64,000 bases of DNA from Chitinophagales bacterium (lineage in GTDB: Bacteria; Bacteroidota; Bacteroidia; Chitinophagales; JADJOU01). The stretch's first letter is position 1. Each line of letters starts with the position of its first letter. Position numbers and translations under genes: made by a program. Location: assembly GCA_016787225.1 (NCBI GenBank), contig JAEUUY010000011.1, forward strand, positions 62,001 to 126,000, given 5' to 3'. A model generated the notes under the pieces. It searched no databases and was not told the origin of the DNA. It saw nothing but the letters and a program-made list of their open reading frames with translations. Shown here piece by piece: positions 55,843-60,262 of the stretch.

Positions 55843-57177
55843 TTATGGCTTAGGGCAGGTATTAATGATTTCAAACTCTCCACCTGCTAAGACTTCAAAT
55901 CCCCCAAAAATCTCTGTAGTTTGTGACGCTATCACTTTACGATTAGTCCCTCCTAACACTCTGAGATTAGGCGAACATAGTCTATTGAGATTGACTCTTC
56001 TGCCATAGTGGGCTATTCTATTCGCTATCCAAGAGCAGTAGTTGCGATCTATTCTTTGCTCACTTTCTACCAACCATCGGCTTGCATTGCCTTGTATGAT
56101 GTTTCCATTATGGGTATACGTGCCCGTAAAGGTTAGAAAATAATGCATAAGTTCGATCTGCATAGGGCTCATTGCATGATTATGGTCATAATCCATAGTA
56201 TTATTTGACCACCATGTAGGGTGTAATGTTCTTAATGAATCATTACGCTCCCCAGGATGAATAGGTGCTAATAGGGTATCTGTCATATACCATGCCGATG
56301 GTGTTTCATTATTAGGAATTCCATCATCACATGTTGTATCTATATTGGTAGCTCCAAAAATTCTGATAGTAGGGCATAATGGACCATTATTATAACGGAC
56401 GGTATGACTGAGCGATAGCGAATGCCCAAGTTCATGCTCCCAAGTTTTAATTTCTCCATCCCAGAACCAATCTCTCGGATGGTTTTTATTGATACCAGAA
56501 GAAGCAAAAAATGAAAAATACTTCGCATAGCTACCCATTTTAACAATAGGGCCTCCCCAGCCGCCACCGCCATAAGTATTTTTAAAAACCCATACGCCAG
56601 GTGAAGGATTCTCAGGAAATATACCAACCCCATGTATAAACACATGAACGACACTATCTATAGGACCTAGTCTCTGAGCGGCTAGATCTGTTTCTGTTGG
56701 CTGCCTTTCTAGCCAACCTCCAGCACCATCCGATGCGGTATCCATCTCGCGATTTATTCTGGAATTTCGAATATAATAAATACCCTCGATGACGAACTGA
56801 ATATCTTTGTGATTGACTGGGATATTATTGTTCGGAGGGATTCGCAGTTTGACATTTAAGTTATACCTATGATTGACCTCTCGCACCATATCATAGGCAA
56901 AGTCCTTACCAGAATAACTATTCCCTAATCCATCTCCCTGTGCATTAAAGTTCTTAAGTCCATTATCATCTTGCATAAAATAAATATTGAGCCTAACTAT
57001 TTTTTTGTCACACTCTGTACCTGATTTTAATCGAGGGTACTCTCGCATCTGATTAAGCAGATGCTGCCGAAAAAAGCGGAAACCAGGAGGATGAACCTCT
57101 CTACAGGTATTCTGAGCATCTAGAATAATTAGGCAAGTGAAAAAACTTGCAGCCATTGATATTAATTTTTTATGCAT
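55843..57177 (-). CDS. Secreted metzincin-type metalloprotease
   Basis: 444 aa with signal peptide (KLISMAASFFTCLIILDAQ). Zinc site HELGHSLSLSH (HExxHxxxxxH), and a downstream Met-turn-like NTMDYDHNHAMSPMQ suggest a pappalysin/M43-like metzincin. A DGIPNNETPSAWYM segment and several Cys pairs lie between. The C-terminus (FEVLAGGEFEIINTCPKP) lacks a clear T9SS domain, unlike two other proteins in its operon. Last gene of the operon. Confidence 0.85.
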   Translation of the reverse strand: MHKKLISMAASFFTCLIILDAQNTCREVHPPGFRFFRQHLLNQMREYPRLKSGTECDKKIVRLNIYFMQDDNGLKNFNAQGDGLGNSYSGKDFAYDMVREVNHRYNLNVKLRIPPNNNIPVNHKDIQFVIEGIYYIRNSRINREMDTASDGAGGWLERQPTETDLAAQRLGPIDSVVHVFIHGVGIFPENPSPGVWVFKNTYGGGGWGGPIVKMGSYAKYFSFFASSGINKNHPRDWFWDGEIKTWEHELGHSLSLSHTVRYNNGPLCPTIRIFGATNIDTTCDDGIPNNETPSAWYMTDTLLAPIHPGERNDSLRTLHPTWWSNNTMDYDHNHAMSPMQIELMHYFLTFTGTYTHNGNIIQGNASRWLVESEQRIDRNYCSWIANRIAHYGRRVNLNRLCSPNLRVLGGTNRKVIASQTTEIFGGFEVLAGGEFEIINTCPKP

Positions 57178-57188
57178 AATCTTTTTAT

Positions 57189-58193
57189 TTAATTTTTAAC
57201 GAATTTTTGACGACCTAGAACTTCTGATTTATTCTGAATACATATATAATAGGTACTAGGAGGTAAGTGAGAAATATCTAGACTCGCAGATTGATGAAAT
57301 TTGTCAGAGGAAATATATTTCCCCTGGCTATCATAGATAATATAGAGCAATTCTTCCGAATTATCCGATTGTACAAACAACTGATCTTTGGCAGGATTAG
57401 GATAGATTTTCAAACCTGGTCTATCTGAACCCTGTATAGACATATAAGCATTTCTCAGCCAGCAGAAACCAGAATAAAATATGTAGCTTCCTAGATTCGG
57501 ATCATAATAACAATCAAAATGCTGAGGCGATACTCTTGGTTGATTAAAATTTGGATTGTTACATCGACATGTAGCATTATGAACCAAATACTTATGATAA
57601 TTGAAATTGTTAGACCTGATTAAATATGAGAATGTTATTGCCTTGTATGGCATGAATTCAGCTAATGTATCTTTCGACACATATTTTCCCCAACTAAAGT
57701 ATGAGGCATTGCTTGAATATATCTTCATTTTATATTTTGCTGAAGTACCGAAACCATTCATAATTTTATAATAAACAGTATCTAATCTGACCCAGACGGT
57801 ATCATTGGGGTCACAGCTTCTATATGGATAAATGGTATCACCCACCAATTCTCTATCCACATAGTAGACTTCTTTTTTTTCCTTGCGGCAATATTCAAAA
57901 ACAGTATCTCCGACTGTAGATATAAAATAACTGCCCAATAAGACCTCGGATCGATTTTCAAAAGTGGGTCTTACCTGAAGGTCGAAGACATCAAACACCT
58001 TGTACCTATGATTGCGAACAGTTGTATCTCTTTCATGCGCTATTCTCACACAAAAATACTCGCCACCGATAGTCTGGTCACAATACAACCAATTAGCGCC
58101 TATAGGTGCCCATTCTTTAAATTCTTGCTGAGCGACAGTAGAACTATTGATACCAATGAAACTTATTAGAAATAATAATCTTAGATTCTTCAT
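57189..58193 (-). CDS. Secreted protein with T9SS sorting domain
   Basis: 334 aa. Signal peptide (LRLLFLISFIGINSSTVAQQ), a mature region with many Cys and aromatic residues (WAPIGANWLYCDQTIGGEYF), and a type A sorting domain (KIYPNPAKDQLFVQSDN..STYYICIQN..GRQKFVKN). Likely surface exposed. Function of the body unknown. Eleven bases upstream of the metzincin gene. Confidence 0.82.
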   Translation of the reverse strand: MKNLRLLFLISFIGINSSTVAQQEFKEWAPIGANWLYCDQTIGGEYFCVRIAHERDTTVRNHRYKVFDVFDLQVRPTFENRSEVLLGSYFISTVGDTVFEYCRKEKKEVYYVDRELVGDTIYPYRSCDPNDTVWVRLDTVYYKIMNGFGTSAKYKMKIYSSNASYFSWGKYVSKDTLAEFMPYKAITFSYLIRSNNFNYHKYLVHNATCRCNNPNFNQPRVSPQHFDCYYDPNLGSYIFYSGFCWLRNAYMSIQGSDRPGLKIYPNPAKDQLFVQSDNSEELLYIIYDSQGKYISSDKFHQSASLDISHLPPSTYYICIQNKSEVLGRQKFVKN

Positions 58194-58201
58194 ATTTATT
58201 T

Positions 58202-58681
58202 CTATTTAATTTTTTTACCTTTAATTGTCCATCCAAAACTACCAAAGGGATTTAATACGAATTTTAGACTTTCTTGCTCAAAATAATAGTCCGAAAAGGA
58301 TAATTTATTCTCAAATTGAAAATCTCCATTGACCATATTAATACTTGTAGGACTATATGAATTAGATATTGGAATCGTATCATGTCCCCAATAGACTAAA
58401 AACTGGTGTGAACTATCCGATTTGACTACACTGCCTCGAGATGTATAATTTTTAAATACATGCGTGTATCTGTAGTTACAAACAAACCCCGGAGCATGAT
58501 TCGTTCTAATTGTATCTATTTCAAACTCGAGATAATGATTCACTATATCAAAATTATACGCTCCTACAAGATTATCTCGAGGGTCTGATGGCTTCTGATC
58601 TTGAATTATATCTTTACTGCAAGAAATATAAAATAAGAGCGCTAGAATGACAGCGAGAAGAGAGAAAGCTCTTTTATTCAT
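58202..58681 (-). CDS. Small lipoprotein of unknown function
   Basis: 159 aa; lipobox FYISC gives Cys21. Beta-rich body (AYNFDIVNHYLEFEIDTIRTN..GHDTIPISN..GSFGWTIKG). Not recognised. It lies between two T9SS proteins with spacing of 8 and 1 bases. Confidence 0.75.
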   Translation of the reverse strand: MNKRAFSLLAVILALLFYISCSKDIIQDQKPSDPRDNLVGAYNFDIVNHYLEFEIDTIRTNHAPGFVCNYRYTHVFKNYTSRGSVVKSDSSHQFLVYWGHDTIPISNSYSPTSINMVNGDFQFENKLSFSDYYFEQESLKFVLNPFGSFGWTIKGKKIK

Positions 58682-58682
58682 A

Positions 58683-59768
58683 CTATTGTTCTTTTAAAAA
58701 CATTTTTGAATCTTTGACACTACCATTGATTTTGAGCGTATAGATGTAATATCCTTGGGTTAGACCAGAACCATTATAGAGCACACTGCCTAAGCCTGTG
58801 CCATCACTGAGGGTTATGGTAGACTGTAGCACTCCCATAATGTTTCTCACTTCTATAATAGCTGAGGTCACAGCCGTCGTCTCATCTATAAAATATGTGA
58901 TGGTCGTAGTGCCATCGAAAGGATTGGGCGTATTTTGAAACAATCGAGACCGAGACTGACCAATGGTATCGATAGATCGTCCCTGCCAGTTGATAATCTC
59001 TTGGCGCAAATCTTGTATCGTCTGCTGCTGCTCCTGAATAGCTTTGATCAATATAGGGACTAATTCTACATAATTGATAGCCTCTAAATTTTCTTTTACA
59101 GTACCTACAATATTGGGGAACTGAACCTTGACATCCTGTGCTATTAGACCATAGTGCTTGGGTTCATTTTCAGTAGGTATTGGTAGATGAAAGTCTGCCT
59201 TTATCGTGGAGTCCTTTATATCTATACTATCTGTAAGTGGTATATCCGAGTTTGATCTTTCTTTGGTATAATTATACATTTTCGGCTCTAGAGCGAGAAC
59301 TTTAGTTAATACCGTAGGTAGATTTTCAATATTGGTCTTGATACTCACATCGCTCCAAGTGTACCAGCCGTGAGAGATGGCATTGCCCTCTATCTGTAGC
59401 CTAAAATTGCTAATAGTTCTTCTCAGCCACCACGCATAGGACGATACAGGGACAGAAATCGAATACCAATCGATTGGACGCATGTTTATGCCCACAAAAC
59501 CTCCGTCAGAGATAAACATTTTATAGTTTCCAGAGTTCCAAGTATTCCATGGTCTCCAGAAATTAAGACCACTATTCCAATGCTCGATAGACCACGCACC
59601 ATTATTCGGATTAGCAGATGCCCTGCCAAAGGTTAGGTATCTATAATCATTATACCCTAGCATAATGGCTGCGTCACTTGTGTTTTGTCGTCTTACCTGA
59701 AAAGCGCCCACTTGGGCGGATAACTTGCATAATGATATTGTTATGAGTAATAATATTATTTTTTTCAT
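58683..59768 (-). CDS. Tail-fibre/S74-chaperone-like T9SS protein
   Basis: 361 aa. Signal peptide (KKIILLLITISLCKLSAQ), an N-terminal beta-rich region, an intramolecular-chaperone-like segment of the S74 type (SDVSIKTNIENLPTVLTKVL..KHYGLIAQDVKVQFP..NYVELVPILIKAIQEQQQ), and a type A sorting domain (NTPNPFDGTTTITYFI..GYYIYTLKINGS). First gene of the operon. Downstream of the structured element at 59927-60115. Confidence 0.85.
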   Translation of the reverse strand: MKKIILLLITISLCKLSAQVGAFQVRRQNTSDAAIMLGYNDYRYLTFGRASANPNNGAWSIEHWNSGLNFWRPWNTWNSGNYKMFISDGGFVGINMRPIDWYSISVPVSSYAWWLRRTISNFRLQIEGNAISHGWYTWSDVSIKTNIENLPTVLTKVLALEPKMYNYTKERSNSDIPLTDSIDIKDSTIKADFHLPIPTENEPKHYGLIAQDVKVQFPNIVGTVKENLEAINYVELVPILIKAIQEQQQTIQDLRQEIINWQGRSIDTIGQSRSRLFQNTPNPFDGTTTITYFIDETTAVTSAIIEVRNIMGVLQSTITLSDGTGLGSVLYNGSGLTQGYYIYTLKINGSVKDSKMFLKEQ

Positions 59769-59926
59769 ATGATTTGAATTTAAGAGTTTATTAATTTGAT
59801 TTTATATGCAAAGGCATTCAAGCCAATGGCTGGTATTTAGTAGCAAAAACTGTAAAGAACCTCATATCAATATTGCATCGTATGATTGAGTACTCATTGG
59901 CTCCGGATCTGCGAGTAAAACATGAT
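59769..59926. other. Leader region upstream of the surface operon
   Basis: 158 bases between the first operon gene and the structured element; contains no gene that I can support. If the minus-strand promoter at 60194 is used, this is part of a leader of about 420 bases. Confidence 0.55.
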
Positions 59927-60115
59927 TAAAAATATAAAGAAGGGTGTGGAGCCATGCCTGAATTACTAACCGTGATAGGTATCGGAAACCTGGAGAACTA
60001 ATAAAACAAGCAAGGACACACCCCGAAGGGTAGTCTTGCCCGTCTCCTCGTCCTCCTTATAAAATTTCCGATTTTATCACGGAGAGGAAAGTCGTGCGAC
60101 CGTTTTATATTTTTA
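59927..60115. ncRNA. Candidate large structured RNA element
   Basis: Bounded by a perfect 12-bp inverted repeat TAAAAATATAAA (59927-59938) / TTTATATTTTTA (60104-60115). Inside, CCGTGATA (59970-59977) pairs TATCACGG (60075-60082) over 97 bases; AGGT-ACCT and CAAGGAC-GTCTTG with an inner CCC-CGAA-GGG hairpin also form; GGGTGTG (59942-59948) can pair CACACCC (60017-60023), excluding the CCC-GGG hairpin. The interior is GC-rich against AT-rich surroundings. No known RNA class fits. Strand not certain: it could be a leader of the minus-strand operon or an independent RNA. Confidence 0.55.
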
Positions 60116-60193
60116 CGTTTTTTCTAGTTTAAATCATATGTTTAAGTTTAAAAGGTGAATGAATCTTATCCCTTTCATTTATTCCTTTCTCTG

Positions 60194-60201
60194 CAAAGAT
60201 A
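60194..60201 (-). promoter_or_regulatory. Possible promoter of the structured leader and surface operon
   Basis: Minus-strand TATCTTTG matches TAnnTTTG. No well-spaced -33 TTG. Transcription from here would pass through the element at 59927-60115 into the gene at 59768. Confidence 0.45.
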
Positions 60202-60262
60202 TATTAAAAAAATGACAATTATGTAAAGAAAATTATCTATAGAAGTCAAAATTGATTTTTCT

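Follow-up and report, generated by a model that had tools for sequence, protein, structure and literature searches.

On the minus strand of the window (the whole stretch analyzed, 64,000 nucleotides of contig JAEUUY010000011.1 from a Chitinophagales bacterium), positions 60121-59918 form the 5' leader of an exported-protein operon whose first gene starts at 59768. This leader is a structured RNA, conserved in a family of more than 127 copies, and its existence is firmly supported. Several of its conserved pairings exclude one another, and the best explanation, which we consider probable, is a two-state cis-regulatory leader RNA that would exchange strands between alternative partners. The preliminary description of the locus had called the element a likely structured RNA and had read a competing pair within it as the sign of a switch. 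The strong covariation of the family and its 5' leader position bear out the former view as well as the suggestion of a riboswitch-like or protein-bound leader, and the competing pair proves to be both conserved and co-varying.

The leader RNA, its fold, and its family

The minus strand folds with a predicted energy of -69.0 kcal/mol, compared to -42.3 ± 4.2 kcal/mol for shuffled sequences (z -6.4), and none of 200 shuffles folds as well. The plus-strand fold of the block is weaker (z -3.3 versus shuffles), and a plus-strand reading, for which the promoter and gene would also lie on the wrong side, was dropped. The strand of the RNA, the one point not decided in the preliminary description, is the minus strand, as indicated by the placement of the promoter, the placement of the gene, and an excess of G-U over A-C in the consensus pairs (432 versus 147 cells); the last of these is supportive only, because G-U pairs are allowed by the model behind the alignment. 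The elements noted earlier are all present, namely the perfect 12-bp inverted repeat (59927-59938 with 60104-60115), the 8-bp pair (59970-59977 with 60075-60082), and the forward-strand GGGTGTG (59942-59948) and CACACCC (60017-60023), whose pairing excludes the CCC-CGAA-GGG hairpin. The minus-strand -7 element at 60201-60194 and the downstream minus-strand operon likewise match the preliminary description.

The covariation data for the family are extensive. Standard pairs occupy 88.3% of cells across the 102 copies aligned, compared to 60.7% in shuffled and 37-45% in slid controls, and double compensatory changes are seen in 56 of the 58 pairs; the homologues examined for such changes thus contain them in abundance. 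The covariation score is 0.615, versus 0.179 when shuffled and at most 0.10 when slid. All four pair types are represented in helices A and B, where mispairs are nearly absent from the centers. Fitting of the alignment to the model biases the absolute pairing levels upward, but the gap to both controls, slid and shuffled, is very wide.

Copies were collected with covariance models built from five seed copies (R1), 20 aligned copies (R2), and 102 copies (R3), for which the E-values are rough, although most matches clear the cutoffs by many orders of magnitude. In the genome of origin, blastn finds two further copies on contig C14, so that it holds three, two of which represent a local duplication; a few more occur in close relatives, and the R1 search adds divergent members from further families within the order. 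With R2, matches are present in 92 of 395 Bacteroidia genomes and 60 of 197 genera (E ≤ 0.01), in 34 of 296 phylum-wide genomes at E ≤ 0.001, including 11 from other classes, and in 57 of the 299 genomes of its own order. R3 detects the RNA in 82 of 295 Bacteroidia genomes (E ≤ 0.001), a count that includes genomes supplying training copies. The number per genome ranges from 1 to 8 and is often several. Among 13 genomes from other phyla, the best match reaches only E 0.43. Copies are present in one Saprospirales and one Sphingobacteriales metagenome-assembled genome (MAG), and the matches in these two MAGs are the only real ones among 15 returned by an exact DNA-pattern search of genome contigs. 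Many short matches in relatives from the first-round BLAST were judged to be due to chance.

A blastn search of plasmids and phages with a related leader returned none; one phage-like IMG/VR contig carries the leader (L197:10258-10458, minus strand), where it lies ahead of two small membrane/exported proteins and beside large virion-type genes. Tandem arrays are found in two genomes, one with three copies within 1.2 kb (L178, G437:C1) and one with two copies 100 nt apart (L164, G621:C103). Two natural deletions (L040 and L070; G002 C29:132-270 and C79:7842-7982) have lost the inner helices and tip hairpin and retain P1, the A/B strands, and the C-run.

The RNA holds a fixed place between promoter and gene. 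Of 125 copies, 56 have the promoter motif TAnnTTTG between -120 and -35 relative to the element, compared to 7.4 for shuffles and 8 of 123 for a far-upstream control, and the motif peaks 30-60 nt upstream of the element. In 110 of 127 copies, the start of a same-strand open reading frame (ORF) of at least 60 aa lies no more than 200 nt away; the median distance is 34 nt. A second promoter motif between the element and the ATG is at chance level (3 versus 2.5 expected). Finally, some unrelated genes have leaders with ~80-93% identity over the stretch that begins at the promoter and ends just short of the ATG, beyond which they diverge (L088/L143 and L097/L114). Since the identity ends near the start codon, the promoter and leader move as a unit.

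Mutually exclusive pairings and a candidate switch

The competing pair joins the 3' arm of the tip hairpin to a C-rich strand downstream. Scored within the same copy, this pairing reaches 19.1, compared to 16.1 ± 0.27 between copies (z 11.3, aligned copies), and control segments, including B', give z values of 0.9, -3.5, 1.5, and 0.0 with the downstream strand. When the tip is located in another way, z is 13.0 for all 127 copies and 5.8 for the 25 copies outside the building of R3. The pair types include GGGGTGTG/CACACCCT (window), GGGTGTACT/GGTACGCCC, AGCGTGAGTG/TGCTCACGCT, TTACGGGAGTG/TGCTCCCGTAA, and AATAAGCGTGGG/CCTGCGCTTATT, and this variation shows that the match often extends into the tip loop, much like a strand-invasion toehold. 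The local tip hairpin co-varies as well (z 14.2), and the downstream pairing outscores it in 60 of the 102 copies. P1, in which the U-rich tract pairs with the 5' end of the RNA, co-varies (z 13.4), as does the AGGY/RCCU pair that frames the 3' strand of helix B and crosses that helix (z 7.6, 102 copies). Two hallmarks of riboswitches are therefore found here, a 5' leader position and mutually exclusive pairings conserved by co-variation. We take the co-conservation of exclusive pairings to be the trace left by a switch, and infer from it that two states form.

Of 121 copies, 87 show a run of at least 5 T after the C-run, versus 29 in shuffles; in the window the tract is interrupted, and it is also paired in P1. 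In 20 of 107 copies, six bases of the B 5' strand are found again downstream, versus 5.7 ± 2.3 expected. In 11 copies, mostly leaders of restriction-modification (R-M) genes, the copy of the B 5' strand lies within GUGGCU...ACAC, a few bases before the ATG. B, B', and this start-codon copy share 5.6 letters within their own leader, compared to 3.7 ± 0.33 when permuted (0 of 2000 permutations). Because the three change together, the data suggest that B' may be able to reach the start region in this mostly R-M subgroup, where the start-codon copies would favor control of translation.

In the mechanism that we propose, the transcript would start ~65 nt upstream of a cis-acting 5' leader of ~200 nt. 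In the closed domain, P1, with an A-rich 5' and a U-rich 3' strand, would enclose a long irregular hairpin (A-B-C-D) capped by a stable tip hairpin. The strand before the U-tract (CCCACGC in the family, CACACCC in the window) would be shared, either extending P1 by pairing with the 5' GCGU or invading the tip hairpin by pairing with its loop and 3' arm, and the AGGY and RCCU elements around the B 3' strand would be able to pair with each other. These two exclusive arrangements would place the switch upstream of the controlled gene, at a median distance of 34 nt from its start codon, and their exchange may decide mRNA synthesis or translation, through an attenuator made of the pseudoknot helix and U-tract or through altered access to the start region. 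Both states would form and control expression, set by a trigger that may be a protein, a small molecule, or a phage or stress state.

A number of points weigh against this switch. The U-rich tract in the window is interrupted (UUCUUUAUAUUUUU) and would make a poor terminator, which speaks against simple termination there. The B-copy near the ATG is seen in a minority of copies only and is lacking in the window, the downstream genes are too diverse to indicate one ligand, and the shuffle tests leave some shared ancestry in. Moreover, instead of two states, the pairings could represent a single stable fold with a pseudoknot. Such a rigid leader would load a factor on RNA polymerase (processive antitermination, EAR/put-like) or shield the 5' end of the mRNA, and would thereby permit the expression of long, AT-rich operons gained by horizontal transfer. 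The long irregular hairpin plus pseudoknot would suit this role, as would the occurrence of one module before very different, often mobile genes (R-M, exported, phage-like contig) and the transfer of the promoter-leader unit as a block. However, the local tip and AGGY/RCCU pairings are conserved alongside the very pairings that exclude them, and there is no Rfam match to EAR (epsC) or JUMPstart, which leads us to consider a non-switching leader rather unlikely.

It is improbable that the element is a trans-acting small RNA, 6S-like or an antisense regulator, which ends at the U-tract and merely lies upstream of genes. While the U-rich tract after a GC-rich strand, the promoter of its own, and the closed stable fold are what such an RNA would display, the same-strand gene start after 110 of 127 copies, with no second promoter, argues against it, as do the 1 to 8 copies per genome and the lack of a 6S-Flavo match at the element. 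We judge it highly improbable that the pairings act on DNA, in a mobile element, recombination site, or guide RNA (integron attC-, IS110 bridge-RNA-, or retron-like). Leader cassettes common to unrelated genes, tandem copies in two genomes, and second copies of internal strands downstream could all be read in this way, but G-U pairs favor one strand as RNA, the promoter-RNA-gene order is fixed, and no recombinase, transposase, or reverse transcriptase domain is found in 35 Pfam-checked downstream proteins, other neighboring ORFs having been read by eye only. An integron attC reading, based on a GTTRRRY-like GTTAAGC, was dropped, as the motif is not kept and has no matching 3' site. The 6S-like RNA and the small mobile element, both entertained in the preliminary description, are thus unlikely, the former given several copies per genome that nearly always precede genes, and the latter given that no crowd of near-identical copies exists in the genome, even though unrelated genes do exchange the unit of promoter and leader.

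Window features and controlled genes

The features of the window are collected in the table. The ATG of the first gene (59768) lies 149 nt past the end of the RNA model. A second conserved stretch (ATCATACGATGCAATATTGATATGAGGTTCTTTA) is located at 59853-59886 (minus strand), ~30-65 nt past the RNA, and is found in copies from the genus only (L038 and L039 equivalents).

Table. Positions of the leader RNA, its parts, and adjoining features in the window
Feature	Coordinates	Strand	Evidence
Structured leader RNA, full-length covariance-model match	59918-60121	-	R1/R2/R3 = 191.6/168.5/133.7 bits, and covariation
-7 promoter element TATCTTTG (Bacteroidota type TAnnTTTG)	60194-60201	-	Sequence; 73 nt upstream of RNA element
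Possible -33 TTG	60216-60218	-	Sequence
P1 5' strand TAAAAATATAAA	60104-60115	-	Perfect 12-bp complement; family helix 1, 13/13 pairs with double changes; z 13.4
ACGG after P1 5' strand, at the place of the family's conserved GCGU	60103-60100	-	Sequence
Helix A 5' strand CCGTGATA	60075-60082	-	Helix 4 of alignment, 93.1% paired
Helix B 5' strand ATCGGAAA, preceded by conserved AAA	60065-60072	-	Helix 5, 93.9% paired
Tip hairpin: ACCC 5' arm (60031-60028), short loop, 3' arm GGGGTGTG (60024-60017)	60017-60031	-	Helix 8, 97% paired
Helix B 3' strand TTTCCGAT (59988-59981), between AGGT (59991-59988) and ACCT (59980-59977)	59977-59991	-	AGGY/RCCU co-variation
Helix A 3' strand TATCACGG	59970-59977	-	Alignment and sequence
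C-rich strand CACACCC, alternative partner of tip 3' arm GGGTGTG	59942-59948	-	z 11.3 aligned, 13.0 all 127, 5.8 held-out
P1 3' strand, U-rich tract TTTATATTTTTA	59927-59938	-	12-bp complement and family alignment
First operon gene: exported protein, Peptidase_S74 domain, weak type IX secretion system (T9SS) sorting tail	58683-59768	-	ORF and domain scan
Other co-directional genes: 159-aa lipoprotein-like protein, T9SS-tailed protein, M12-like metallopeptidase	55843-58681	-	Operon inferred from spacing

Across the family, exported proteins account for 71 of 119 downstream genes, versus 41 of 121 background ORFs, by a crude signal heuristic. Pfam identifies DNA methylase/R-M genes after at least 11 copies (L077, L085, L097, L100, L101, L102, L109, L117, L119, L141, and L143). 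Exported proteins and R-M methylases dominate the gene set, which also includes response-regulator-like proteins, small proteins of unknown family, and a sigma factor. As a tentative extension, the family may represent a phylum-wide class of switching leaders that would put phage-facing genes (R-M, exported/surface, phage-borne cargo) under one signal through strand exchange among P1, the tip, and the start region.

Recurrent neighbors were observed as well. Two small-protein families (74-95 aa) directly follow the leader (L150 and L180; L172, L177, and L080), with no Pfam match where scanned. One copy (L076, G199:C1) follows a tyrosine-recombinase-like gene at a distance of 98 nt and precedes a 33-aa membrane peptide; L075 and L082 likewise stand before a conserved 33-aa membrane peptide. 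A family of ~160-180-aa proteins is encoded beside several of the genus copies (L039:6974-7513 +, L038:9694-10179 +, L040:453-926 +, and L069:8054-8536 -); three of these proteins begin MSNLTNNRIDT, and in three cases the gene is divergent from the leader. The Flavo-1 RNA (RF01705) occurs near three leaders (L103:1073-1148 +, L059:1847-1919 +, and L113:564-634 -), with one match above the gathering score (63.2 bits) and two below.

Relation to known RNAs

Searches with Rfam 15 give no convincing match over the window element and none in 25 other loci, so that the comparison with known classes called for at the outset leaves the RNA outside of them. Neither EAR (RF01735) nor JUMPstart (RF01707) is matched. 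For 6S-Flavo (RF01685) there is no match at the element, a result that holds at the element level only, as the whole-genome search was silent even in controls. The leader RNA is not described in the literature compared, including the main text of PMC2864571, PMC8632094, and PMC8040213; supplementary motif collections lie outside this comparison, and an unnamed earlier prediction within them is possible. The HMP2 motifs (PMC8040213) are predicted Bacteroidetes structured RNAs that, like the leader RNA, lie upstream of genes, but those presented in the text of that paper span only 38-132 bp, and the leader RNA is longer than these.

A leader RNA that is present in about a quarter of sampled Bacteroidia and missing from Rfam would rank among the commoner cis-acting RNAs of the phylum, and would offer a way into the control of surface proteins and DNA-modification genes in Bacteroidota. 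To our knowledge, few leader regulators are known for Bacteroidota. Since the competing pairs are known at base resolution, they can be tested directly.

In the RepZ leader of IncI plasmids, translation of the plasmid replication initiator is acted on by a pseudoknot, in which the loop of a hairpin binds a strand located downstream, close to the start codon. The loop-to-downstream-strand pairing near a start codon is alike in the leader RNA, with no homology between the two. 6S-Flavo is likewise a long imperfect hairpin from Bacteroidota, but the leader RNA occurs in several copies per genome and ahead of genes. EAR (epsC), put, and JUMPstart are also structured RNAs near the 5' end of operons, in part for surface products; they belong to other phyla and their models do not match, and the RNA described here is a single ~200-nt hairpin closed by P1. 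The leader RNA matches no Rfam riboswitch class, no conserved aptamer-like core was identified, and its genes are exported or R-M rather than metabolic, but with pseudoknot- and attenuation-type riboswitches it shares the 5' leader position, the mutually exclusive pairings, and a C-rich strand followed by a U-tract before the gene.
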